Part shown: positions 49,256 to 63,523 of the stretch, in pieces
How the letters are laid out: each line of letters opens with the position of its first letter
How positions within the stretch are numbered: position 1 is the stretch's first letter
Assembly (NCBI GenBank): GCA_025210735.1
Contig: JAOARD010000044.1
Span: 1 to 64,000 of the forward strand
Direction of reading: 5' to 3'
Length of the DNA: 64,000 nucleotides
Source: Bacteroidales bacterium
Lineage (GTDB): Bacteria > Bacteroidota > Bacteroidia > Bacteroidales > UBA6680
Made by a program: the position numbers and the translations under genes
The notes under the pieces: generated by a model
Databases searched by the model: none
Seen by the model: the letters and a program-made list of their open reading frames with translations, nothing else
Told to the model about the DNA's origin: nothing

Positions 49256-49291
49256 AAAAAAAGGGTGTGATAATAGTGTCACACCCTTTTT
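49256..49291. terminator. Terminator after rny
   Basis: AAAAAGGGTGTGA pairs with TCACACCCTTTTT around TAATAGTG, flanked by As and Ts, 24 bp past the rny stop. It separates the housekeeping genes from the polysaccharide cluster. Confidence 0.92.
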
Positions 49292-49309
49292 ATGTAACGG
49301 TTTATTTCT

Positions 49310-49317
49310 TAAATTTG
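49310..49317 (+). promoter_or_regulatory. -7 element of the polysaccharide cluster
   Basis: TAAATTTG matches TAnnTTTG and would start transcription near 49324, 12 bp before the first gene. Confidence 0.6.
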
Positions 49318-49335
49318 AATCACAAAATTTTAGTT

Positions 49336-50469
49336 ATGAAGGAAATCCAAATGGTGGACTTGAAGTCCCAATACGATAAAATAAAGGGTGAAATAGATAG
49401 TTCTATACAAGAGGTAATTAACTCATGTCAGTTTATAAACGGGTCAAAAGTGAAGGCTTTTTCTGACAATGCGGAAAAGTATCTTGATGTAAAGCATTTT
49501 ATTCCGTGTGCAAACGGAACAGATGCTCTTCAGATTGCAATGATGGCTCTTGGTTTGAAACCGGGCGATGAGGTTATTACAGCAGATTTTACTTTTATAG
49601 CTACAGTTGAAGTAATTGCATTACTTGGATTAAAGCCTGTTTTGGTTGATGTTGATAAAGACACATTCTTAATGGATATCGAATCGCTTAAAGCAGCTAT
49701 TACGCCTAAAACTAAAGCTATTGTTCCTGTACACCTGTTTGGTCAGTGTGCAAATATGGAAGAGATACTTGCTATTGCAAAAGACAATGATCTTTTTGTA
49801 ATTGAAGATTCAGCTCAGGCTTTTGGATCTGATTATACTTTTTCTAATGGTGATGTTAAGAAGGCTGGAACTATGGGGCACTTTGGCTGTACATCATTTT
49901 TTCCGTCTAAAAACCTTGGCTGCTATGGCGATGGTGGTGCTCTTTATACTAACGATGATGAGTTGGCCGACATGGCACGTATGATTGTTAATCATGGAAT
50001 GAAGAAAAGATATTACCATGAGGTTATTGGAGTTAACTCAAGACTGGATTCTGTTCAGGCTGCTGTTTTAGATGTTAAGCTGAACTATATTGATGAGTAT
50101 AATAGTAGAAGAAGAGATGCTGCCGAGTTTTACAATAGAGAACTTTCGGATATAGAATTTATACAAACACCGGTAAAATCAGAAAAGAGCAGTCATATAT
50201 ATCATCAATATACAATGCTTATTACTGGTGGTCATCGTGATGGATTACGTGACTATTTAGATACTAAAAATATACCTGCAATGATATATTATCCGGTGCC
50301 ACTACATGTGCAAAAAGCATTTGATTATAATGAGCCGGAAGCTGAAGCAAAATTTGTGAATACTAATACAATTTCAGACCTTGTTTTATCGTTGCCAATG
50401 CATACAGAGTTAACCAATGAGCAACTTGACTATATTGTAACGGAGATTAAAAACTATTTTAAAGAGTAA
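49336..50469 (+). CDS. DegT/DnrJ/EryC1 aminotransferase, WbpE/WlbC-like
   Basis: I start at ATG 49336 (MKEIQMVDLKSQY); a longer frame runs back through the rny terminator. The 377-residue PLP enzyme has the family features SANGTDAL-like CANGTDALQIA (58-68), VIEDSAQAFGS and PLP Lys192 in FFPSKNLGCYGDGG. In the Wbp/Wlb pathway this enzyme aminates UDP-3-keto-GlcNAcA to UDP-GlcNAc(3NH2)A. The three other enzymes of that pathway follow directly, which is the main reason for this substrate assignment. Confidence 0.88.
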   Translation: MKEIQMVDLKSQYDKIKGEIDSSIQEVINSCQFINGSKVKAFSDNAEKYLDVKHFIPCANGTDALQIAMMALGLKPGDEVITADFTFIATVEVIALLGLKPVLVDVDKDTFLMDIESLKAAITPKTKAIVPVHLFGQCANMEEILAIAKDNDLFVIEDSAQAFGSDYTFSNGDVKKAGTMGHFGCTSFFPSKNLGCYGDGGALYTNDDELADMARMIVNHGMKKRYYHEVIGVNSRLDSVQAAVLDVKLNYIDEYNSRRRDAAEFYNRELSDIEFIQTPVKSEKSSHIYHQYTMLITGGHRDGLRDYLDTKNIPAMIYYPVPLHVQKAFDYNEPEAEAKFVNTNTISDLVLSLPMHTELTNEQLDYIVTEIKNYFKE

Positions 50470-50473
50470 AACT

Positions 50474-51046
50474 ATGGATAATTACTTTGCACACCCCAGT
50501 GCAGTTGTTGATGATAACTGTAATATTGGTGAGGGGACAAAAATATGGCATTTTTCGCATATTATGAGTGATTGTGTTATAGGCGAAAAATGTAATATAG
50601 GGCAGAATGTGGTTGTCTCTCCTGGTGTTATTATGGGTAAAAATGTTAAAGTCCAGAATAACGTGTCACTTTATACAGGTGTGGTTTGTGAAGATGATGT
50701 ATTCTTAGGGCCTTCTATGGTCTTTACTAATATTACAAATCCACGCAGTGCAATTGTACGAAGAGACCAATATAGTAAAACATTCGTTCGTAAAGGTGCT
50801 TCAATTGGAGCAAATGCAACTGTTGTTTGTGGTAACGAAATTGGTGAATATGCTCTTATAGGAGCAGGAGCTGTTATTACAAAACCAGTTAAACCATATG
50901 CACTTGTTGTAGGAAATCCTGCTCGTCAGATAGGTTGGGTTTCTGAATACGGACACAGATTGGAGTTTGATCAATCTGGTGAAGCAACATGCCCGGAAAG
51001 TAAGGATAGATATCGTTTGAGTAACGATACTGTTGAAAAGGTTTGA
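50474..51046 (+). CDS. WbpD/WlbB-like N-acetyltransferase (left-handed beta helix)
   Basis: The 190-residue protein is built of hexapeptide repeats (VIGEKCNIGQNVVVSPGV, VKVQNNVSLYTGV, ASIGANATVVCG) and has the NPRSAIVRRDQY and VVGNPARQIGWVSEYGHRL signatures of WbpD-type transferases. It should acetylate the 3-amino group to give UDP-GlcNAc3NAcA using acetyl-CoA. It begins 4 bp after the aminotransferase. Confidence 0.9.
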   Translation: MDNYFAHPSAVVDDNCNIGEGTKIWHFSHIMSDCVIGEKCNIGQNVVVSPGVIMGKNVKVQNNVSLYTGVVCEDDVFLGPSMVFTNITNPRSAIVRRDQYSKTFVRKGASIGANATVVCGNEIGEYALIGAGAVITKPVKPYALVVGNPARQIGWVSEYGHRLEFDQSGEATCPESKDRYRLSNDTVEKV

Positions 51047-51132
51047 TAATAAGTGGTTATTGAAGAAATTGAATATAGTCGGTTTTGTTTGGAAGTATAA
51101 CCGATTTATAATTAAGAAAGAGATTTAGACAG

Positions 51133-52071
51133 ATGAAAAATTTTGGTATAGTAGGTGTTGCTGGATATATTGCTATCAGACACCTTAAAGCTATAAAAGA
51201 TACAGGAAACCAATTGGTTGCTGCGCTAGATAGATTTGATAGTGTTGGACAAATGGATGCGTTTTTTCCTGAGGCAGATTTCTTTGTTGAATTTGAGCGA
51301 TTTGACAGACATTTTGATAAACTTAAAAGAACAGGAACTAAGATAGATTATGTAAGTATTTGTTCACCTAACTATTTGCATGATTCACATATAAGATTTG
51401 CTCTCAGACATGGGGCAGATGCTATATGTGAAAAACCATTAGTGCTAAATCCATGGAATGTAGATGCATTAATGGAGATAGAGAGGGAGACGGGCAAACG
51501 TATTTACAATATCTTGCAGTTGCGTCTTCATCCGTCTATTATTGCTCTTAAACAAAAAATAGATAATGGACCAAAAGATAAAATCTATGATATAGATCTT
51601 ACGTATATCACAAGTCGTGGACGTTGGTATGATATTTCATGGAAAGGTGATATGCATAAGTCAGGTGGTGTGGCAACAAATATTGGAGTCCATTTTTACG
51701 ATATGCTTACATGGATATTTGGTGATGTAAAAGAAAATACCGTACATTTAAGAGATGATCACAGATCAGCAGGGTATCTTGAACTTGAAAAAGCAAGAGT
51801 ACGTTGGTATTTAAGTGTTGATTATAACGATGTGCCTGAAGAGTATAAGGCAAAAGGACAAAGAACATACAGGTCAATAACTGTTGAGGATGATGAGATT
51901 GAGTTTAGTGGTGGCTTTACGGATTTGCATACTTTGTCATATCAGAATATTCTTGAGGGTAATGGATTTGGTCTTGCAGAGGCAAAGAAATCTATAGAGA
52001 TTGTTCATGATATAAGAAATTCGGAAATAAAAGGTTTAACAGGAGAATGGCATCCATTCTGCAAAAAATAA
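51133..52071 (+). CDS. WbpB/WlbA-like UDP-GlcNAcA 3-dehydrogenase
   Basis: The 312-residue Gfo/Idh/MocA protein has an N-terminal NAD fold (GIVGVAGYIAIRHLKAI), the EKPLV motif near residue 101 and the SRGRWYDISWKGD and GVATNIGVHFYDML features of WlbA. It oxidises UDP-GlcNAcA at C3; in the studied family members NAD is recycled with 2-oxoglutarate produced by the aminotransferase step. An 86-bp gap precedes it and 9 bp follow before the 6-dehydrogenase. Confidence 0.9.
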   Translation: MKNFGIVGVAGYIAIRHLKAIKDTGNQLVAALDRFDSVGQMDAFFPEADFFVEFERFDRHFDKLKRTGTKIDYVSICSPNYLHDSHIRFALRHGADAICEKPLVLNPWNVDALMEIERETGKRIYNILQLRLHPSIIALKQKIDNGPKDKIYDIDLTYITSRGRWYDISWKGDMHKSGGVATNIGVHFYDMLTWIFGDVKENTVHLRDDHRSAGYLELEKARVRWYLSVDYNDVPEEYKAKGQRTYRSITVEDDEIEFSGGFTDLHTLSYQNILEGNGFGLAEAKKSIEIVHDIRNSEIKGLTGEWHPFCKK

Positions 52072-52080
52072 TATCTAATT

Positions 52081-53370
52081 ATGTATAATGAATTGTTGAA
52101 TAAAGAAGCCAAACTTGCTGTTATTGGTCTTGGTTATGTAGGTTTGCCAATAGCTTTGGAGTTTGCTCGTAAGGTATCTGTAATAGGTTTTGATATTAAA
52201 CCTGACAGGGTTGAGATGATGAAGAATCGTATTGATCCTTCTCGTGAACTTGAACCTGAAGAGTTTGATGGTTGTGATATTGAGTTTACTGCAGATATAG
52301 AGGATCTAAAGAAAGCAAATTTTTATATTGTAGCTGTTCCTACACCGATAGATCAGCATAATATGCCGGACCTAACACCTGTATTAAAGGCTTCTGAAAC
52401 AGTTGGTAAAGTTTTAAAGGAAGGCGATTATGTTGTTTATGAGTCAACAGTTTATCCAGGATGTACAGAAGAAGATTGTGTTCCTGTTTTAGAAAAGGAA
52501 TCGGGATTAAAATATATTGATCAATTTAAGGTTGGTTTCTCACCTGAGAGAATTAACCCGGGAGATAAAGTAAATACTCTTACCACAATTACTAAGGTGT
52601 CATCAGGATGTGATGAAGAATCAGCTGAAGAGATTGCAAAGACATATGAGCTTGTAATTGAGGCTGGAGTCCACAGAGCAAGTAGTATTAAGGTTGCTGA
52701 GGCATCAAAGATAATTGAGAATACACAGCGAGATATTAATATAGCTTTTGTCAATGAGTTGTCAATTATATTCAATAGAATGAATATAAACACATATGAG
52801 GTTCTTGAAGCAGCTGGGACAAAATGGAATTTTCTTAAGTTTTTCCCTGGCCTTGTAGGTGGTCACTGTATTGGTGTTGACCCTTATTATCTGTTACATA
52901 AATCTAAAGAGCTTGGTTATCATGCACAGATGATACATGCAGGTAGATTTATAAATGACTCAATGGGTGGATATATTGCAAAACAGATTGTTAAAAAGAT
53001 TATTGCAAAGGATAAAGATATTCGCGGAGCCAGAGTACTTGTTATGGGGATAACCTTTAAAGAGGATGTTAGTGATATAAGAAACTCTAAGGTTATTGAT
53101 GTTGTAAGAGAATTTGAATCATATGGAGTAAAGGTTGATGTTGTTGATCCATATGCTGATAAAGAAGAGGTTAAAGAAGAATATGGTTTGGATTTAAGTC
53201 AAAGTCCTGAAGGTGAATATGATGCTGTAATTGCTGCAGTTAGTCATGATAAATATTTAGAGATGACACAGGCAGATTTTGAGAATTACATGACTTCTGA
53301 TTCAGTATTTGTAGATATTAAGGGAGTGCATAAAGATAAGTTCAGAGATAAAGACTATTGGAGTTTGTAA
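52081..53370 (+). CDS. UDP-N-acetyl-hexosamine 6-dehydrogenase (TviB/WbpA-type)
   Basis: The 429-residue enzyme has the NAD fold VIGLGYVGLPIALEF (14-28), VPTPIDQHNMPDLTP, ESTVYPGCTEE, SPERINPGD, the catalytic Lys/Asn segment and the active Cys in GLVGGHCIGVDPYYL (about 258-272). Sequence style resembles the TviB/WbpO branch. With WbpB/E/D-like neighbours, its substrate is most likely UDP-GlcNAc, giving UDP-GlcNAcA; UDP-GalNAc remains possible. A terminator follows. Confidence 0.9.
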   Translation: MYNELLNKEAKLAVIGLGYVGLPIALEFARKVSVIGFDIKPDRVEMMKNRIDPSRELEPEEFDGCDIEFTADIEDLKKANFYIVAVPTPIDQHNMPDLTPVLKASETVGKVLKEGDYVVYESTVYPGCTEEDCVPVLEKESGLKYIDQFKVGFSPERINPGDKVNTLTTITKVSSGCDEESAEEIAKTYELVIEAGVHRASSIKVAEASKIIENTQRDINIAFVNELSIIFNRMNINTYEVLEAAGTKWNFLKFFPGLVGGHCIGVDPYYLLHKSKELGYHAQMIHAGRFINDSMGGYIAKQIVKKIIAKDKDIRGARVLVMGITFKEDVSDIRNSKVIDVVREFESYGVKVDVVDPYADKEEVKEEYGLDLSQSPEGEYDAVIAAVSHDKYLEMTQADFENYMTSDSVFVDIKGVHKDKFRDKDYWSL

Positions 53371-53516: not shown

Positions 53517-54395
53517 ATGAAAGGAATTGTGTTGGCCGGAGGATCCGGTACAAGGTTATACCCTATAACCAAAGGTGTTTCTAAACAGTTGTTACCTGTT
53601 TATGATAAACCAATGATTTATTACCCCTTATCTGTTTTGATGTTAGCTGGAATAAGAGAGATATTGATTATATCAACACCATATGATCTTCCTCATTTTG
53701 AAAGATTGCTTGGTAATGGTGATGATTTAGGAATTGAGATATCTTATAAAGAGCAGCCAAGTCCTGATGGTTTAGCGCAAGCATTTATAATTGGGGAGGA
53801 GTTTATTGAAGATGATGATGTTTGTATGGTGTTGGGTGATAATATATTTTATGGACAAGGATTAACTGATTTATTGGCTAGATCGGTTGAAAATGTTCAG
53901 AATGAAAGAAAGGCAACTGTATTTGGCTATTATGTAAAGGATCCGGAACGTTATGGTGTTGTAGAGTTCGATAAAACAGGTAGTGTAATATCAATAGAGG
54001 AAAAGCCAGAAGATCCAAAGAGTAATTATGCTGTAGTTGGATTATATTTTTATCCAAATAATGTTATAAATATAGCCAAAAGTATTAAACCTTCAGAAAG
54101 AGGAGAACTAGAGATAACATCTGTAAATCAGGATTATTTGAGCTCAGGTGATCTTAGAGTTGAGTTAATGGGAAGGGGATATGCCTGGCTTGATACAGGG
54201 ACACATGAATCTCTTTTAGATGCAGGAAGTTTTATTGAGACAATTGAAACCAGACAGGGGTTAAAAGTTGCTTGTCTTGAGGAGATAGCTTATAATAAGG
54301 GTTTTATTGATAAAAAACAATTAGTTAAACTAGCTGCCGATTTGAGTAAAAATCAGTATGGCAAATATTTATTTAATATTATTGAAAACGGATGA
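53517..54395 (+). CDS. rfbA: Glucose-1-phosphate thymidylyltransferase
   Basis: The 292-residue enzyme makes dTDP-glucose from dTTP and glucose-1-phosphate. The [20 protein letters not shown] start, [14 protein letters not shown] and [14 protein letters not shown] are diagnostic for RmlA. It overlaps rfbC by 4 nt (ATGA), so the two are coupled. Confidence 0.96.
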
Positions 54396-54940
54396 ATATA
54401 TACGATACCGACTTTGTAGGTGTGAAAATAATTGAGCCAAAAGTATTCGTCGATGAAAGAGGTTATTTTTGCGAAACATTTAAGGAGAGTGAATTTGAAG
54501 AAAAGGTTTGCAAAACAAAGTTTATTCAAGATAATGAGGCAAAATCAACATATGGGGTTTTGAGAGGATTACACTATCAGCTGCCTCCTTTTGCACAAGC
54601 AAAACTAGTAAGAGTTATATCTGGGAGAGTTATGGATGTTATTGTTGATTTACGCAAAAGTTCATCTACATTTGGAAAACAATTTAAAATAGAACTGTCT
54701 GAGGATAATAAAAAGCAAATATTTATTCCAAGAGGTTTTGCTCATGGTTATATTGTGTTAAGTGAAGAAGCGATTTTGTGTTATAAAGTAGATAATAATT
54801 ATTCGCCAAAACATGAATCCTCAATATTGTATAATGATGACTTGCTAGATATTGATTGGTTAGTTTCAAAAGATAAGATTCTATTGTCCGATAAAGATTT
54901 ATTAGGTAAGAGTTTTAAAGATGCCATATTGTTTGATTGA
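54392..54940 (+). CDS. rfbC: dTDP-4-dehydrorhamnose 3,5-epimerase
   Basis: The 182-residue cupin enzyme converts dTDP-4-keto-6-deoxyglucose to dTDP-4-keto-rhamnose. [15 protein letters not shown], the catalytic RGLHYQLPP and [13 protein letters not shown] are present. It sits between rfbA and rfbB; rfbD is not in the window. Confidence 0.95.
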
Positions 54941-55131
54941 ATAAACCATATCTGTATTTTATGAAAAATATAATATTTACGGTATGTAATTAATCTGATT
55001 TTTTATTTAAGTTGGTGTAATATTTTTAGTAGAATAATACTTATATGGCATGTGCCTAATAAGACAGTATTAATAAGAAATGTTTAAAATACGAGTTTCT
55101 GTATTTGAAATATAAAAACAGATTTAAATTT

Positions 55132-56136
55132 ATGAAATCTATATTAATTACGGGTGGAGCAGGGTTTATTGGATCTAATTTTATTCCCTATTTTATAGAA
55201 AAATACCCAGCATATCATATTGTAAATATTGATAAGTTGACATATGCGGGTGAAATAGCTAATTTAAAAGAGGTTGAAACTAATAGTAGATACTCCTTTG
55301 TTAAAGGAGATATTTGTGACAGGAAGTTACTTGAAACTATATTTAAAAAATACGATATAAGAGGTGTTGTTCACTTTGCTGCAGAATCGCATGTTGATAA
55401 CTCAATAGAGGGTCCAGAGATATTTATAGATACTAATATTAAGGGGACTTTTAATTTACTTGATGTTGCAAGAAGTTATTGGATGGATTCTCCTTTTAAT
55501 TATAAAGAAGAGTATATGGGATGTAAGTTTCATCATATATCTACAGATGAGGTTTATGGGTCGTTGGGAAAAACAGGTTTGTTTGAGGAGACAACACCTT
55601 ATGCTCCAAACTCTCCATATTCAGCTTCAAAGGCTTCGTCAGATTTTATTGTTAGAGCATACTTTCAGACATTTGGTATGAATGTTACAACAAGTAACTG
55701 TTCTAATAATTATGGACCAAAACAACATAGCGAGAAGCTTATACCAGTAATTATTAGAAAAGCAATAAATAAAGAACCTATACCTGTATATGGAGACGGA
55801 AAGAATATAAGAGATTGGTTATATGTATTAGACCATTGTAAAGGTATAGATTTAGTATACCATAATGGTGTCTCAGGAGAGACATATAATATTGGGGGTA
55901 AGAATGAGAGAGAGAATATATTTATTGTTAATAAAATATGTAATATTCTTGATGATTTGAAACCTACTCTGGATGGGAAGAAGTATTCGGAACAAATCAC
56001 TTTTGTTAAGGACAGAGCTGGACATGATAGGCGTTATGCTATTGATGCATCTAAAATTGAAAATGATCTTGGTTGGAGCGCAGAAGAAAACTTTGAAAGT
56101 GGTATATTAAAAACTATAAAGTGGTACTTGATGTAA
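55132..56136 (+). CDS. rfbB: dTDP-glucose 4,6-dehydratase
   Basis: I use ATG 55132 (MKSILITGGAGFIGSN); the frame is open 9 codons further upstream. The 334-residue SDR has GGAGFIGSNF, HFAAESHVDNSI, the STDEVYGS active-site motif and YSASKAS. It dehydrates dTDP-glucose to the 4-keto-6-deoxy sugar. A 191-bp gap separates it from rfbC, so a separate promoter is possible, though I see no clear one. Confidence 0.95.
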   Translation: MKSILITGGAGFIGSNFIPYFIEKYPAYHIVNIDKLTYAGEIANLKEVETNSRYSFVKGDICDRKLLETIFKKYDIRGVVHFAAESHVDNSIEGPEIFIDTNIKGTFNLLDVARSYWMDSPFNYKEEYMGCKFHHISTDEVYGSLGKTGLFEETTPYAPNSPYSASKASSDFIVRAYFQTFGMNVTTSNCSNNYGPKQHSEKLIPVIIRKAINKEPIPVYGDGKNIRDWLYVLDHCKGIDLVYHNGVSGETYNIGGKNERENIFIVNKICNILDDLKPTLDGKKYSEQITFVKDRAGHDRRYAIDASKIENDLGWSAEENFESGILKTIKWYLM

Positions 56137-56492: not shown

Positions 56493-57278
56493 ATGTTAGA
56501 AGGTTGTGATAAATTAAGAAAAAAAATAATTGATACTGCATTTGCTACCAAGTCAGGTCATATTGGTGGTGCACTTAGTGTAATTGATATATTGTATACC
56601 TGCTTTTTTAAAACTATGAATGATTGTGAAGAGTTAATTTTGTCAAAAGGACATTCTGCATTAGCTCTTTATGTTTGTTTGAATGAAAAAGGAGTTATTT
56701 CAGATGAAGAACTAAGTTCTTTTTATAAGGATGGAACAGTATTACCAGCACATCCATCATCGTTTCACTATAAAAAGGATATTCCCTTTGGTTTAGGGTC
56801 ATTAGGACATGGACTCTCTTTGGCTAATGGAGTTGCTTTAGCAAATAGGTTAAATGGGAAAGATGTTTGCACTTATGTTGTTATGTCAGATGGGGAGACA
56901 AATGAAGGCTCAGTTTGGGAGGCTGCTAATTTTGCTGTGGCAAACAAATTGAATAAACTAATCTCTATAATTGATAAAAATAAACTTCAGGCTTTTGGTT
57001 ATTCTAATGAAGTATTGGGTGATACTGCATCTAAAGATAAGTGGGAAACCATAGGATTTGAAGTTGTTGAGGTTGACGGGCATAGTATTGAAGATTTAAG
57101 AAAAGCAATCAAAAATCTTAAAAATGATGATGTTAGACCTAAATTAATTATTGCAAATACAATAAAGGGAAAGGGGATTGATTTTATGGAGAATGAGCTG
57201 AAATGGCATTATATCCCTATGAAACCTGAAGAATATGATAGTGCAGTTAAACAGTTAAAGGTTATAGTTGATGCGTAA
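56493..57278 (+). CDS. Transketolase-like protein, N-terminal (thiamine-binding) subunit
   Basis: The 261-residue protein corresponds to the first third of a transketolase: TKSGHIGGALSVIDILY, LSKGHSALALY, LGSLGHGLSLANGVALA and the thiamine diphosphate motif SDGETNEGSVWEAANFA. The second subunit follows with an 8-nt overlap. Split transketolases inside polysaccharide clusters usually act in making branched or unusual sugars; which one here is not known. Confidence 0.9.
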   Translation: MLEGCDKLRKKIIDTAFATKSGHIGGALSVIDILYTCFFKTMNDCEELILSKGHSALALYVCLNEKGVISDEELSSFYKDGTVLPAHPSSFHYKKDIPFGLGSLGHGLSLANGVALANRLNGKDVCTYVVMSDGETNEGSVWEAANFAVANKLNKLISIIDKNKLQAFGYSNEVLGDTASKDKWETIGFEVVEVDGHSIEDLRKAIKNLKNDDVRPKLIIANTIKGKGIDFMENELKWHYIPMKPEEYDSAVKQLKVIVDA

Positions 57279-58164
57279 AGTATTTTCAGAATATATTGAA
57301 CATATATCAAAAGAAAGGGACGATATAGTTTTTCTTACTGGTGATCTAGGCTTTAATGCGTTAGAGAATGTTCGTGATTGCTTGAAAGAAAGGTTTATTA
57401 ATTGTGGTGTTGCAGAGCAGAATATGATTGGTGTTGCGGCAGGACTTGCAAGCAAAGGTTTTCAGGTATTTTGTTATAGCATTGCTCCTTTTGTGACTTT
57501 TAGAGTTTTAGAGCAGATAAAAGTGGATATATGCTTAAATAATTTACCAGTGTGCATTGTAGGTAATGGTGGCGGTTATGGTTATGGAATAATGGGAGCA
57601 ACACACCATGCATTAGAAGATATTGCCTGCATGAGTTCAATGCCAAATATGTCTTCATATATTCCTGCTACAAACAATAACGTAAAGGAAAGTTTAGATC
57701 TGTTTTTTAGTTGTAAAAGCCCATCTTATTTAAGATTAGGATATTCAGAGATATGTGATGAAAAAGTTACTGTTGGATTATCTGCTATATCTAAGGTTAA
57801 TAATCCTAAAATGACGATTTTAACTTTAGGTCCAATTCTTTGCAATGTTTATGATTTTATAAATGAAGGAAATGAAATTGATATATATTCTGTTACTGGT
57901 TTGCCTTTTAAACTATCTGATGAGTTTATTAATAGTATTGAGACTACAGGAAAGCTTTTAGTTGTAGAGGAGCATGTGTCAAGAGGAGGATTAGGAGAAT
58001 ATATAGCGAAATTATTATTGGAAAAGGGTGTTAAACTTGATGTGTTTAAATCTCTAACTGCTTCAGGATATCCCAATAAATTATATGGTAGTCAAAAGTA
58101 TCACCAAATGATATCAGGAATTGACTCTTGTAGTATTAATAATATTATAAAAGAATGGTGCTAA
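57271..58164 (+). CDS. Transketolase-like protein, C-terminal (pyrimidine-binding) subunit
   Basis: I start at ATG 57271, inside the end of the preceding gene. The 297-residue protein has the pyrimidine-domain motif NCGVAEQNMIGVAAGLA with the conserved Glu, GNGGGYGYGIMGATHHALED and the C-terminal transketolase domain (LLVVEEHVSRGGLGEYIA). It must pair with the upstream subunit to be active. It overlaps the next gene by 10 nt. Confidence 0.9.
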   Translation: MRKVFSEYIEHISKERDDIVFLTGDLGFNALENVRDCLKERFINCGVAEQNMIGVAAGLASKGFQVFCYSIAPFVTFRVLEQIKVDICLNNLPVCIVGNGGGYGYGIMGATHHALEDIACMSSMPNMSSYIPATNNNVKESLDLFFSCKSPSYLRLGYSEICDEKVTVGLSAISKVNNPKMTILTLGPILCNVYDFINEGNEIDIYSVTGLPFKLSDEFINSIETTGKLLVVEEHVSRGGLGEYIAKLLLEKGVKLDVFKSLTASGYPNKLYGSQKYHQMISGIDSCSINNIIKEWC

Positions 58165-60140
58165 AAGATGATGTTCTGAAATTGGAAGGTCCAATATTTG
58201 TTTTTGGAGCAAGTGGTTTTGTTGGTATTAATCTGTTACAGGAAATACTTAAGTATAGAGATGATTGTTATGGAATTTCTCATAATATTAAATATGCTTG
58301 GAGATTAAAACTGGCAAAAATACCAGATAGGAATATTCTGTATTGCGATATAACTTATAAGAACTCTGTTGAAATCCTTTTTGAAAAATATAAGGCAAAG
58401 ACAATATTTAATTTGTCGGCATATGGAGCATATTCTAAACAGAATAATAGTGACCTAATATATCAAACAAATTTTGTAGGAACATTAAACATCTTGCAAG
58501 CTGCAAAGGATATAAAAATGTATGTTAATGCAGGAAGTAGTTCAGAGTATGGAATGAACTGTTCTTCTCCTGAAGAAGATGATTTGCTTGAACCGAATAG
58601 TCATTACTCTGTATCAAAAATATCTATTAGTTATTTGTTAAGCTATTATGCAAAGTTCTTCTCTTATCCTTGTGTAAACCTTAGGTTGTTTTCAATTTAT
58701 GGAAGGTGGGAAGAGCCTGACAGATTGATTCCGAAACTCATTGAATCAGGTTTTGATAAGAGTTATCCGAATCTTGTAAATAAAGATATAAGCAGAGATT
58801 TTGTATATATTGACGATTGTGTAAAAGCATTTATCCAGGCAGCAATAAAAACTCCGGAAACATATTATGGTAAGAGTATTAATATAGGATCGGGGGTAAA
58901 AACTACCATAGAGGATCTTGCAAACTACAGTAGAGAAATTTTTAAAATTGAAGAAGATCCTGTTTTTGGAAAAATGCCTGATAGAAAATGGGATCTGAAA
59001 GATTGGTATGGAAATTATACTTTAGCGGAAAAGATTTGGGGTTGGACTCCTGATACTAATGTATATGATGGGATTAAATTAACTGCTGAATGGAACAAAG
59101 AGTTTGGATACGACAAATTACTAAGTGCATTTAATGATCCTAAACGTGTATTAAAAATATCACCTATAATAGCTTGTTACAAAGATGAGCAGGCAATACC
59201 TATAATGTATGAGCGCCTTGTCAATGTTTTTAATAAGATAGGGTGTGCATATGAAATAATATTTGTAAACGATTGTTCTCCTGATAATACGCAACATGTG
59301 TTGGATGATTTATGTGCAAAGGACTTGAATGTTGTTGCAGTAACACATTCCAGAAATTTTGGTTCACAGGCTGCATTTTTAAGTGGTATGGGAATAGCAT
59401 CTGGCGATGCAGTAGTATTGATGGACGGTGATTTGCAAGATCCGCCTGAAGTAATAGAAGAGTTTTACGATAAATGGTTACAAAACTTTGATGTTGTTTA
59501 CGGTGTAAGAAGCAAAAGGGAGGCATCATTTTTTATGAATATTTATTATAAGCTTTTCTACAGAGTTTTTAAGAAATTATCATACGTTAATATTCCTGTT
59601 GATTCAGGCGATTTCTCTCTTATAGATAAGAAAGTTGTTAAACAACTATTAGCACTGCCTGAGAAAGAACAGTTTTTAAGAGGACTAAGAGCATGGGTTG
59701 GATTTAAGCAGACAGGAGTTGAGTATTTTAGACCAGAGAGAATGTTTGGACGTTCTACTAATAATGTTATGAAGAATATTCAGTGGGCAAAGAAGGCTAT
59801 ATTCTCATTTAGTTTCGCTCCACTTGAGTTTATGACAATGATGGGGGCATTATTGACAACTATCTCTTTTATTGCAATAATATTCCAGATAGTTATGAAG
59901 TTGTTTTTTCCTGAAACACCTCATGGTGTACCAACAATTATTGTACTTATATTGTTTTTTGGAGGAGTTAATCTGTTTGCAATTTCTATCATTGGAGAAT
60001 ATCTGATTAAGATATTTCAGGAGACAAAAGGAAGGCCGGTTTTTATTAGATCAAAAGTGATTCATAAAGGAAAGATATTCACAGACACAGATGAAATCTT
60101 AACACTTGAGAATTATGATAAAAGTAAAAAAGAATGTTAA
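58155..60140 (+). CDS. Fusion of NAD-dependent epimerase/dehydratase and membrane glycosyltransferase (GT2)
   Basis: The 661-residue protein joins two enzymes normally encoded apart. Residues 10-320 are an extended SDR: GASGFVG (18-24), NLSAYGAYSKQ, and Tyr151/Lys155 in HYSVSK, followed by SRDFVYIDDCVKAF. Residues 333-640 are a GT2 of the GtrB/DPM1 polyprenyl-phosphate type: EIIFVNDCSPDNT, THSRNFGSQAAF, acidic DGDLQDPP (424-431), and two C-terminal helices (about 555-580, 590-615). It could make a sugar and load it onto a lipid carrier. Frame is open through the junction without stops. Confidence 0.9.
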   Translation: MVLKDDVLKLEGPIFVFGASGFVGINLLQEILKYRDDCYGISHNIKYAWRLKLAKIPDRNILYCDITYKNSVEILFEKYKAKTIFNLSAYGAYSKQNNSDLIYQTNFVGTLNILQAAKDIKMYVNAGSSSEYGMNCSSPEEDDLLEPNSHYSVSKISISYLLSYYAKFFSYPCVNLRLFSIYGRWEEPDRLIPKLIESGFDKSYPNLVNKDISRDFVYIDDCVKAFIQAAIKTPETYYGKSINIGSGVKTTIEDLANYSREIFKIEEDPVFGKMPDRKWDLKDWYGNYTLAEKIWGWTPDTNVYDGIKLTAEWNKEFGYDKLLSAFNDPKRVLKISPIIACYKDEQAIPIMYERLVNVFNKIGCAYEIIFVNDCSPDNTQHVLDDLCAKDLNVVAVTHSRNFGSQAAFLSGMGIASGDAVVLMDGDLQDPPEVIEEFYDKWLQNFDVVYGVRSKREASFFMNIYYKLFYRVFKKLSYVNIPVDSGDFSLIDKKVVKQLLALPEKEQFLRGLRAWVGFKQTGVEYFRPERMFGRSTNNVMKNIQWAKKAIFSFSFAPLEFMTMMGALLTTISFIAIIFQIVMKLFFPETPHGVPTIIVLILFFGGVNLFAISIIGEYLIKIFQETKGRPVFIRSKVIHKGKIFTDTDEILTLENYDKSKKEC

Positions 60141-60831
60141 ACAATTTAATGAAGACGTATTAAAGAATAGAGGTTATTTTTATACAACTAATGCTCCAGT
60201 TTCTTCTGTTTTTGCAAATAAAAGAATATCAACAGAGGTATTCAAACTTATTTCTAAAATAAAACCGCAATCAGTTTTGGATATAGGCTGTGGTGATGGA
60301 ATATATACAAACGAGATTAAACTAGGGTTTCCTGATATAGAAGTATCTGGTTTTGATTACTCAGAGGAAGCGATAAATGTAGCTTGTAATAATTATAAGG
60401 ACATGAAATTTTACAGAATGGACATATATAAAATAGAGGATAATATTCATAAAACTTATGACCTATGTGTTATCAGGGGGTTATTACATCATTTATCAGA
60501 CCCTTTTGGGGCTTTGTCTGAGGTTTCTAAAATATGTAAGAATATTATTATTGTAGAACCAAATGGTAATAACCCTATTTTAAAGATTATAGAAAAAACT
60601 TCAAAATATCATATTGAACATGAGGAGCAATCTTTTTCATCTAAGTTGTTTAAATCTAAATTGTCAGAAAATAGGCTTGAGATTGAAGAACTGAAATTTA
60701 TTGGTTTTATTCCTTATTTTTTTAATCCGTTTTTAGCTAAAGTGATCTGGAAATTGCAACCTGTTTTGGAAAAAGTATATATTCTTAAGAAGTATTTTGG
60801 TGCTCAAATTGTAATTTATTGTAAAAGATAG
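60115..60831 (+). CDS. Class I SAM-dependent methyltransferase
   Basis: I start at ATG 60115, 26 nt inside the fusion gene; a TTG 9 bp earlier is also in frame. The 238-residue protein has motif I VLDIGCGDGIYTNEI, the following acidic residue in SGFDYSEEAI and a post-motif LCVIRGLLHHLSDP. Its target is unknown; in this setting a sugar or lipid-linked sugar is plausible. Confidence 0.85.
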   Translation: MIKVKKNVKQFNEDVLKNRGYFYTTNAPVSSVFANKRISTEVFKLISKIKPQSVLDIGCGDGIYTNEIKLGFPDIEVSGFDYSEEAINVACNNYKDMKFYRMDIYKIEDNIHKTYDLCVIRGLLHHLSDPFGALSEVSKICKNIIIVEPNGNNPILKIIEKTSKYHIEHEEQSFSSKLFKSKLSENRLEIEELKFIGFIPYFFNPFLAKVIWKLQPVLEKVYILKKYFGAQIVIYCKR

Positions 60832-60832
60832 A

Positions 60833-61543
60833 ATGGGATCAATTGTTGATGAGAGTGGTTTTAATCAAGGATTTAAAAAAACTAAAGCTTGGTGGATTAG
60901 GAGCAGAAGACGTTGGGATAAGGTGGTTTCTGAGATGACTGTATCCGATAAATCGTTTAGAGTACTGGAGATAGGTTGTTCTACAGGAGAGATGTCTGAT
61001 TATATTGCAAATAATAAGAAAGCATTTGTTACAGGAGTTGATATATCAGATAAGTTTATATCTGTTGCCAAGAAAAAATATAAGAGGGATAATCTTGAGT
61101 TTAAGGTTTTAGATTTTAACAATGTTAATTATGATGAAATAGATAAGTTTGATTATATAATAGGAGATGGTATTTTGCATCATTTACATGATAATATTAA
61201 TGAATCTCTCAAATCAATTTATAATTTGCTGAATGATAATGGAAAAATAATATTTTGGGAACCCAATATTTATAACCCATATGTTTTTGCTATTTTCAGA
61301 ATTAAATATTTAAGAAAAGTAGCTAAGTTAGAACCTGATGAAATGGCCTTTTCAGGTTTATTTATTAGAAAAAAGTGTATGAGTGCTAATTTTGTGAATC
61401 CGAAGGTTATATGGCTTGATTTCTTATTACCTAATACTCCGGAAAGATTAATTTCTGTTTTAATTTTTGTTGGTAAACTTTTAGAGAAATTACCTTTTAT
61501 AAAAAAAGTGTCGCAATCAATATTTATTGTAGCACAAAAATAG
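60833..61543 (+). CDS. Class I SAM-dependent methyltransferase
   Basis: The 236-residue protein has RVLEIGCSTGEMSDY (motif I), TGVDISDKFI, and DYIIGDGILHHL. It resembles the gene just upstream in plan but not closely in sequence. It begins 1 bp after that gene ends. Substrate unknown. Confidence 0.85.
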   Translation: MGSIVDESGFNQGFKKTKAWWIRSRRRWDKVVSEMTVSDKSFRVLEIGCSTGEMSDYIANNKKAFVTGVDISDKFISVAKKKYKRDNLEFKVLDFNNVNYDEIDKFDYIIGDGILHHLHDNINESLKSIYNLLNDNGKIIFWEPNIYNPYVFAIFRIKYLRKVAKLEPDEMAFSGLFIRKKCMSANFVNPKVIWLDFLLPNTPERLISVLIFVGKLLEKLPFIKKVSQSIFIVAQK

Positions 61544-61606
61544 TTTATAAATCTCAGTTATATTATTTTATAATGTGACCGAATAGAAATATTAATTAAG
61601 TATCGA

Positions 61607-63523
61607 ATGAATAATATATTTTTTATAGTACTATATGTTCTTGCTTTTGTAACGCCCTTATTTTTGATATTCAATAGGTTTGCGTCTGTAAAAACATCGG
61701 TTATTATCTCTGTTGGTACAGCTCCACTTTTTGTTGGGTTGTTTAATATGATAAATGTTGCTTTGGGAATCAACGGGAATTACTTAATGTATTTAGTACC
61801 ATTATTATTTGCTGCATTAATCTATTTAATTCAAAAGCCTGTTATTATAAAATCCCTAGTTGAAAGCAAAATATTTGTTAAACCAATGGTTTTTGGTTTA
61901 GTTCTAGGAGGTGTATATTATTATTTGTTTTTCTATAACTACTATAATAGTGGGGAGATTCACTGTGATACAATGTGGAATTTAGGGTTAATAAATAATT
62001 TTAAAAATTATGTGATTCCAAATAATCCAGCTTGGTCATCTGGTGAACCTTTTTTATATCATTATCTTACAAATTGGTGTTTTGCAGGGGTTTCAAATTT
62101 TTCTCAGCTATCAGCATTGAATACTGTTTTAGGAATAGGAAACTATATTGTGATTTCATCTTTTCTGATGATATTGTTTATAATGATTTCGAGAGAATAT
62201 ATTGTAACATTCATAGTATTTGTATCCTTTATTATTTTTTCTGTAAAACCTGATTGGATAGTTAGTGACATGATACTAAGGCATTTTAATGGAAATGCAG
62301 TTACTTCATATTTCTGGTCATTACCTTTTCTTATAACCTGTTTATATCTGTTTTTTAAAGTACGGAAAATAAGAGATTACAATTCTGTTAGAGCGATAGT
62401 TATATTTGTTATAGTAAACTTATTTATTGCTTTTGTTTTAGGAGCATCAAAAATATCAAATTTATTGATATTGATAGGTGTAGAGTTTTACTTCTTTATC
62501 AGGTATTTATTGCAAAGGAAAAAAATGAATATACTTAGCTTTTTTTCTTTTGGAGTATTACCTGTTTTTACTTTACTTTTTACATTTATATATAATATAT
62601 CGTATGCAAATATTTCATTAGCAATTGGAATAGATGCGAAAGATTTTCATGCATTTAATAGTTGGAATTTGCTTTATCCTATATTTGTTTTGTATGGAGT
62701 TGTATTATCTTATATAGTGTTTCAGCGAAAAAGTATAAACCAATTTAGATGGGAGTTTCTTTTTGCAAGTGGATTTAATTTTTTGGCTTTTTTGTTATTT
62801 AAACATGCCGGTAATTCAGATCTATTTTTTGGATTAAATTCTATTTTATGCAATTTTTTCTTTATAGTATTCAGTAAACATGAAAACAAAGTAAAGCAGT
62901 TAGTATATTCAATATGTATATATGTATTTATAGCAATGTTTTATAATGGGGTTGTTGGAAAAGGTTTCTTTGAGATTAGTATAAGTTCAAAACATATACG
63001 AAGCCAAAAAAGTGATTATAATTTTGATAATGATAGAGTAGACGATTTAATTGATTTGTCGCATAAATTAGAAAGAAATACTTTTATGATAGTAGATAAT
63101 CAGGAAAAATCATATACTACCTTGTATTCTGCAATTCTAGGTGTTAGAACATGGAATGAGTCAGTTAGATATTCTTTGAATACAGATAATAATTATTACA
63201 GAGTTTCAAAGTATCTTAAAGAGGAACCCTTTCTTAAGAATATAGGTTCTTTTCCTGATTTGAAAAAGATATATAGCTCAATGTTGAATGATATAAGTAA
63301 AGAAGGTTTTTGTGATGATGATATTGAGAAAAAAGACAATAGAAGAAATATATTTAATGAATTTGTATATTCAAATGTAGGAGAAAATGAGCATATTGAT
63401 TATATTCAAAAATATAAATGGACTCATTTGTTGATTGAGAATAAACATTATCCTAAGATTAACAGGATATTGAAGAATAAAAATAGAATAATAGGAAAGT
63501 ATTATAGTATAATTAAATTGTAA
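61607..63523 (+). CDS. Polytopic membrane protein, possible GT-C glycosyltransferase
   Basis: The 638-residue protein has about ten hydrophobic segments within residues 1-460 and a hydrophilic C-terminal part (about 465-638). The first large loop contains HCDTMWNLGLINNF with Asp121, then PAWSSGEPFLYHYL, a layout resembling GT-C enzymes where a loop-1 acidic residue is catalytic. This suggests transfer from a polyprenyl-phosphate sugar, which the GT2 fusion upstream could supply. The assignment is tentative: a flippase/polymerase-type role cannot be excluded. Confidence 0.7.
   Translation: MNNIFFIVLYVLAFVTPLFLIFNRFASVKTSVIISVGTAPLFVGLFNMINVALGINGNYLMYLVPLLFAALIYLIQKPVIIKSLVESKIFVKPMVFGLVLGGVYYYLFFYNYYNSGEIHCDTMWNLGLINNFKNYVIPNNPAWSSGEPFLYHYLTNWCFAGVSNFSQLSALNTVLGIGNYIVISSFLMILFIMISREYIVTFIVFVSFIIFSVKPDWIVSDMILRHFNGNAVTSYFWSLPFLITCLYLFFKVRKIRDYNSVRAIVIFVIVNLFIAFVLGASKISNLLILIGVEFYFFIRYLLQRKKMNILSFFSFGVLPVFTLLFTFIYNISYANISLAIGIDAKDFHAFNSWNLLYPIFVLYGVVLSYIVFQRKSINQFRWEFLFASGFNFLAFLLFKHAGNSDLFFGLNSILCNFFFIVFSKHENKVKQLVYSICIYVFIAMFYNGVVGKGFFEISISSKHIRSQKSDYNFDNDRVDDLIDLSHKLERNTFMIVDNQEKSYTTLYSAILGVRTWNESVRYSLNTDNNYYRVSKYLKEEPFLKNIGSFPDLKKIYSSMLNDISKEGFCDDDIEKKDNRRNIFNEFVYSNVGENEHIDYIQKYKWTHLLIENKHYPKINRILKNKNRIIGKYYSIIKL

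Follow-up and report, generated by a model that had tools for sequence, protein, structure and literature searches.

Gene organization of the transketolase locus

The stretch of DNA analyzed here (hereafter designated the window) comprises 64,000 nucleotides, positions 1 to 64,000 of contig JAOARD010000044.1 (106,478 bases), from the draft genome (5.63 Mb; GenBank assembly GCA_025210735.1) of a Bacteroidales bacterium. Between positions 56493 and 63523, it contains six genes on the plus strand, which a preliminary description had located there and regarded as one unit for an unknown sugar. They encode the two halves of a split transketolase (TK), namely TK_N (56493–57278), the N-terminal half binding thiamine diphosphate (ThDP), and TK_C (57271–58164 from its ATG start), the pyrimidine-binding and C-terminal half; a 661-residue protein in one frame (58155–60140), in which a short-chain dehydrogenase/reductase (SDR) domain is fused to a family 2 glycosyltransferase (GT2) domain; two methyltransferases, MT1 and MT2; and a polytopic membrane protein. 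We found that a conserved core is made up of the two transketolase halves and, from the SDR-GT2 protein, the SDR domain. This core is a recurrent module of which no description was found in the open-licence papers searched, and its product is most likely a sugar with a two-carbon branch.

With ATG starts, TK_N and TK_C overlap by 8 nt, TK_C and SDR-GT2 by 10 nt, and SDR-GT2 and MT1 by 26 nt, and MT1 and MT2 are separated by 1 nt; for the six genes and this spacing, the preliminary description is borne out by the coordinates and the Pfam domains. The following gaps are 63 nt (between MT2 and the membrane protein) and 14 nt (between the membrane protein and a DegT aminotransferase). The tight run of genes does not end at 63523 but goes on into the aminotransferase and further genes, so that the right edge of a six-gene unit is arbitrary.

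Identity and active site of the split transketolase

The two chains together carry the domain set of a split-type transketolase, with Transketolase_N on TK_N (PF00456, 107 bits) and Transket_pyr and Transketolase_C on TK_C (PF02779, 96 bits; PF02780, 26 bits). Among solved structures, each chain is nearest to its counterpart in the Carboxydothermus split transketolase (6yaj, 6yak), with E-values of 2e-51 for TK_N (N half of 6yak) and 3e-27 for TK_C (C chain of 6yaj/6yak). Among the NCBIfam models, the pair scored 213 bits with transketolase versus 49 bits with E1 alpha and 16 bits with E1 beta; it fits transketolase models, with weak DXS and E1 matches, and is not of the YerE-type ThDP decarboxylase family. 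TK_N also had matches of up to ~39% identity in phage records.

In a TK_C tree of 34 rows, from which one incomplete row (L065) was left out, the 11 rows of the window clade were split from all others with a support of 100/100, and the transketolase of a Streptomyces plasmid (L066) was placed outside the clade. The active sites were compared in an alignment of 35 TK_C rows and 33 TK_N rows, the Carboxydothermus chains included. The Glu residue of the EQ motif was kept in all 11 clade TK_C rows, and the ThDP-site His residues in all 11 matching TK_N rows; we take these positions to be catalytic or ThDP-site residues. A different picture emerged at the positions of human transketolase H416, D424, R474, S345, and R318, placed by the alignment, which presumably contact the phosphate group of the substrate or recognize its hydroxyl groups. 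In the clade, whose rows are not independent (five of the 11 from one genus and two from another), H416 is replaced by Gly, D424 by Met, and S345 by other residues throughout, and R474 is replaced in 10 of the 11 rows, R318 being kept. The canonical sugar-phosphate residues are thus lost at H416, D424, and S345, and mostly at R474, while the catalytic ThDP residues are retained, a combination that speaks for the pathway proposed below.

The SDR-GT2 fusion protein

The SDR domain (58155–59126, boundary approximate; Epimerase, PF01370, 131 bits) belongs to the extended SDRs. GSSSEYG is invariant in the eight aligned relatives, and the Y-x-V-x-K motif is also common to all eight. 4,6-Dehydratases carry a catalytic Asp-Glu motif. 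This motif is absent from the SDR domain, and its nearest solved chains are mostly 4-epimerases, a GDP-6-deoxy-hexulose reductase being found further down the list, which argues that the SDR, by its sequence of the epimerase or ketoreductase type, should oxidize or reduce a nucleotide sugar and not dehydrate it. The GT2 domain (59127–60140, boundary approximate; Glycos_transf_2, PF00535, 95 bits) scored best with the PgfS (NF047588, 223 bits) and ArnC (NF007986, 143 bits) models, both scores being below the curated equivalog cut-offs. Hydropathy revealed two hydrophobic segments at its C-terminus, giving the layout of a polyprenyl-phosphate glycosyltransferase, that is, a GT2 domain followed by two transmembrane segments. 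ArnC acts on undecaprenyl phosphate, by the name of its NCBIfam model, as presumably does PgfS. The window protein shares the domain family and the two C-terminal segments with these enzymes, but differs in that its GT2 domain is joined to an SDR, which would generate or complete the donor sugar.

Co-occurrence of the core in other genomes

Among 295 genomes of the order, 26 contained a match to TK_C at E<=1e-30 and only five at E<=1e-50 (the source genome, G252, G239, G159, and G026), and the SDR domain was found at E<=1e-50 in exactly the same five. With the source genome left out, the chance of such a four-and-four coincidence among 294 is 3e-9 assuming independent genomes, although the real odds are weaker, G252 and G159 being in one genus. 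In 395 genomes of the phylum, TK_C (E<=1e-50) and SDR-GT2 (E<=1e-90) again occurred in the same two, the source genome and G484, and in neither sample was a TK_C of the window subfamily present without the SDR.

TK_N, TK_C, and SDR-GT2 are adjacent in G239 and on a plasmid of the alphaproteobacterium Methylobacterium aquaticum (~39, 40, and 47% identity, respectively). Another genus of the class, that of G484, also encodes the SDR-GT2 fusion, with 57–59% identity, in 12 of its 13 genomes; 11 of these 12 loci cover ~20 kb, and the twelfth (L084) 3.3 kb. In each of the 11 long loci, TK_N, SDR-GT2, and TK_C lie in this order within a span of ~8 kb. The gene for a ~590-residue membrane protein shares 1 nt with TK_N there, and its product matches PMT_2 in G484, the one scanned among the 11 loci.

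In G252, G159, and G026, TK_N (loci L128, L129, and L130) adjoins an unfused SDR (45–51% identical), and TK_C lies on a different contig, where a conserved GT2 and two short genes come after it (L032:9093-11479, L034:9373-11828, and L035:9421-11846). The TK_N gene of these genomes is part of a TK_N-SDR-GT2-DUF4915 run on a contig separate from TK_C. A sulfotransferase-like gene (60% identity) stands beside TK_C in G026 and beside this run in G252 and G159, and its appearance at one or the other ties the TK_C locus and the TK_N-SDR locus together. The idea of an orphan TK_C half enzyme in these three genomes was dropped, as TK_N and SDR are present on other contigs. Just after the TK_C cassette of G159 (L034:12127-16600), there is a long CRISPR-like array with at least 46 repeat copies at ~75-base spacing. 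Fragments of a TK_C relative (48% and 68% identity) are encoded on two contigs (L004 and L005) of one Prolixibacteraceae metagenome-assembled genome, and this organism is perhaps another carrier of the module.

Collectively, the link between the transketolase and the SDR across genomes is strongly supported. The proposal of one unit thus stands for the transketolase pair and the SDR, as their joint occurrence, gene order, and fusions elsewhere indicate, whereas the six genes together are not a conserved unit: no strong relative of MT1, MT2, or the membrane protein adjoins the core in the examined loci. The idea of the preliminary description about the transketolase is supported, but the boundary that it gave to the unit is too wide.

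Accessory and neighboring genes

MT1 (60115–60831; PF13847, 58 bits) and MT2 (60833–61543; PF08242, 63 bits), both on the plus strand, are class-I S-adenosylmethionine methyltransferases accessory to the core. The 638-residue membrane protein (61607–63523, plus strand) has 11 hydrophobic segments by hydropathy and matched no Pfam or NCBIfam family; its single-sequence AlphaFold model, with a mean pLDDT of 40, was too low for use. No relative of it was found on plasmids or in two other genomes of the family, and it has no significant similarity to two membrane proteins of the G484 genus. It is possibly a GT-C transferase.

Directly after the membrane protein (window 63538 to L002:3727), there are genes for the DegT aminotransferase, an Fe-type alcohol dehydrogenase, a CMP-sugar synthetase/KdsC-type fusion, and a NeuB-family synthase, a set that we take to resemble a KdnA/KdnB-like pathway to a CMP-activated ulosonate carrying an amino group. 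A further row (L002:6420-11376) encodes a 4-hydroxy-2-oxovalerate-aldolase-like protein, an HpaI-like aldolase, an LdpA-like iron-sulfur protein, a HAD phosphatase, and a KdsB-like cytidylyltransferase, possibly a second unusual CMP-sugar route. Elsewhere in the window (49267–53370), consecutive genes for a DegT protein, an acetyltransferase, an oxidoreductase, and a nucleotide-sugar dehydrogenase are similar to WbpE-D-B-A, the genes for a UDP-diacetamido uronic acid.

Related transketolases of another type

A 635-residue protein of Paenibacillus cellulosilyticus contains Epimerase (19–247) and Transketolase_N (383–612) in one chain; it is encoded downstream of rfbF and rfbG, and TK_C follows directly. 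The corresponding G167 genes are arranged as rfbF, rfbG, SDR, TK_N, one for a C-methyltransferase-like protein, and TK_C. Such transketolases are therefore tied to sugar-nucleotide chemistry by their rfbF-rfbG neighborhoods, although both rfb-linked TK_C rows are on the opposite side of the 100/100 split from the window clade. A Roseibium plasmid encodes rfbF, rfbG, DegT, a methyltransferase, SDR, and GT2 near a GT39 protein and GtrA, without a transketolase, and this would represent a similar SDR-to-GT2-to-GT-C layout for another sugar. Yet another split-TK type was seen at L038:1257-4120 and L039:8625-11476, where TK_N-TK_C stands beside a DegT aminotransferase. A similar set occurs in the wps-2 exopolysaccharide cluster of Actinoplanes, for which a transketolase pair with aminotransferases is listed (PMC13390465, 2026).

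Proposed pathway and its alternatives

We propose, with a probability of roughly 0.48, that the module builds a sugar with a two-carbon branch on a lipid carrier for a surface glycan. It draws on features that the sequences show, namely the identity of the genes, the coupling of TK and SDR from genome to genome, the position of the subfamily on its own branch, the missing phosphate-site residues, and the GT2 family. In this pathway, TK_N and TK_C would together make up a ThDP enzyme transferring a two-carbon ketol (hydroxyacetyl) unit to the keto group of a nucleotide-activated keto-sugar, so that a branched sugar bearing a tertiary alcohol results; an analogy with yersiniose suggests that the branch may be at C-4. 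The SDR domain would carry out the partner redox step, reducing the keto group on the newly added branch, and may in addition generate the ketone of the acceptor, and the GT2 domain of the same polypeptide would transfer the finished sugar to undecaprenyl phosphate. A GT-C-like membrane transferase would then move the sugar from the lipid to the glycan, and MT1 and MT2 probably methylate the branched sugar or its neighbors. Lipid-linked transfer, suggested in the preliminary description, fits the polyprenyl-phosphate-type GT2 and the PMT_2-type membrane protein abutting the core in one genus, but the examined loci do not support that the membrane protein of the window itself belongs to the conserved unit.

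As the acceptor, a dTDP-4-keto-6-deoxyhexose and a ketone that the SDR itself produces appear about equally likely. The former could come from rmlA, rmlC, and rmlB (53517–56136, plus strand; TIGR01207, TIGR01221, and TIGR01181, all over the cut-offs), which lie upstream of TK_N and are a possible source of a dTDP-4-keto-6-deoxy sugar. This rmlB is the only one of the genome at E<=1e-60, and rmlD is on contig C43, so that the rml genes need not be dedicated to the branched sugar; an argument that they serve it because no rmlD is in the cluster was dropped, since with rmlD on C43 ordinary dTDP-rhamnose may be made. dTDP-glucose dehydratase was found in all 15 genomes with the core trio and in the rfb-type G167, but its presence says little because 11 of 14 control genomes have it too. 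If the SDR makes its own ketone, no dedicated dehydratase is needed, which would explain why most relatives have none beside the core. In such a redox-balanced assembly line on few chains, the SDR would oxidize C-4 of a common nucleotide sugar, the split transketolase would add the C2 ketol to that ketone with formation of a tertiary alcohol, the same SDR would reduce the new branch with the NADH, and the fused GT2 would load the branched octose directly on undecaprenyl phosphate; this full sequence of steps is speculative and rather unlikely. A CDP-keto sugar is less likely than the other two for the window subfamily, even though rfbF-rfbG, which adjoin the transketolase in G167 and Paenibacillus, are located ~13 kb downstream in the source genome. 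CDP-4-keto-6-deoxyglucose as the general acceptor was rejected, as CDP-glucose 4,6-dehydratase, in a search of 16 genomes, occurs in only five of the 15 trio genomes (and in G167) and the rfb-linked transketolases of G167 and Paenibacillus are outside the clade.

Several observations weigh against the branched-sugar pathway. The acceptance of a ketone sugar by a transketolase is so far unproven (PMC12247030), and the GT-C role of the membrane protein is unverified. CDP-glucose dehydratase is missing from 10 of the 15 trio genomes, and the acceptor ketone has no visible source in the loci of G252, G159, G026, and the G484 genus because no dehydratase gene lies beside the core there. At the active site, the Methylobacterium protein keeps Arg at the R474 position, and the His and Asp residues are also lost in many of the other 24 TK_C rows, that is, in other split transketolases. 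The loss of His and Asp was therefore rejected as a mark of the window clade alone, and a single change, the missing basic residue at R474, where 23 of the 24 other rows have Arg or Lys, is nearly special to the clade.

Alternatively, the transketolase might use ordinary aldehyde chemistry to make a chain-extended or keto sugar, such as a pentulose, heptulose, or octulose, whose nucleotide form would be the substrate of the SDR and GT2, no branch being introduced. Ordinary transketolases do use aldehyde acceptors, which speaks for this route. L-Xylulose is, moreover, known as an O-antigen sugar from Yersinia (PMC11380512), but the excerpt of that paper names no transketolase for it, the core of other genomes has no neighboring kinase or nucleotidyltransferase gene for a sugar of this kind, and the residues gripping sugar phosphates are replaced; we consider this route unlikely. 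A less likely explanation still is that the actual pathway consists of the SDR and GT2, placing an unusual hexose or pentose onto undecaprenyl phosphate, while the transketolase halves supply or recycle a precursor with no branching of the carbon skeleton. It would agree with the Roseibium plasmid, where an SDR-GT2 gene pair accompanies rfbF-rfbG and a GT39 gene without a transketolase; however, the Roseibium SDR is just ~27–28% identical over the pair, the invariable company of the SDR with the subfamily TK_C in both genome samples is left unexplained by it, and TK_N is even fused to an SDR in Paenibacillus. Finally, every family model names the pair a transketolase, as would be expected of an ordinary pentose-phosphate enzyme lying by chance inside a glycan cluster. 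This is highly improbable in view of the two additional TK_N-type genes in the source genome, the separate and fully supported branch with altered substrate residues, and the co-occurrence with one SDR.

Relation to known systems

The Carboxydothermus split transketolase has the same two-gene architecture as the window pair and provides its best solved relatives, but keeps the canonical phosphate-site residues lost in the window clade. Apulose-4-phosphate transketolase, for which no open-licence paper was found, is a catabolic split transketolase; run in reverse, its reaction would attach a C2 unit to a ketone. The two-carbon addition that we ascribe to the window pair has a counterpart in the split-gene transketolases of miharamycin and amipurimycin, which were proposed, untested in vitro, to transfer hydroxyacetyl to keto sugars (PMC12247030, a 2025 review). 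The likeness, drawn by description only, lies in a two-gene transketolase thought to move hydroxyacetyl to a keto sugar; the 13 putative sequences of that kind in the review are all from Streptomycetes and concern antibiotics, whereas the window module belongs to a glycan cluster, has an SDR partner fused to a lipid-carrier GT2, and occurs in other phyla.

On the route to yersiniose A of the Yersinia O-antigen, YerE attaches acetaldehyde to CDP-3,6-dideoxy-4-keto-glucose (PMC12247030). It is likewise a ThDP enzyme, and it introduces a branch into a nucleotide-activated 4-keto sugar that is destined for a surface polysaccharide. It is, however, of a different ThDP family and decarboxylates pyruvate, while the window transketolase is expected to add hydroxyacetyl. 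C-4 hydroxyethyl octoses of antibiotics and O-antigens are reviewed in the paulomycin paper (PMC4753412), where the two-subunit ThDP enzymes AviB1/AviB2 (avilamycin) and Pau11/Pau12 (paulomycin) are proposed to attach a two-carbon branch at C-4. These enzymes differ in using pyruvate as the donor and forming an acetyl branch, and the score of the window pair with the transketolase model is far above that with PDH E1 alpha.

The module names an enzyme set for asking whether transketolases accept ketones, a question still pending according to the review (PMC12247030), with a homologue on the plasmid of a named isolate, Methylobacterium aquaticum. If our proposal is true, it predicts a class of sugars with a 1,2-dihydroxyethyl branch, and transketolases would provide a further way to the branched sugars of surface glycans, in addition to the YerE and Avi routes that use pyruvate.

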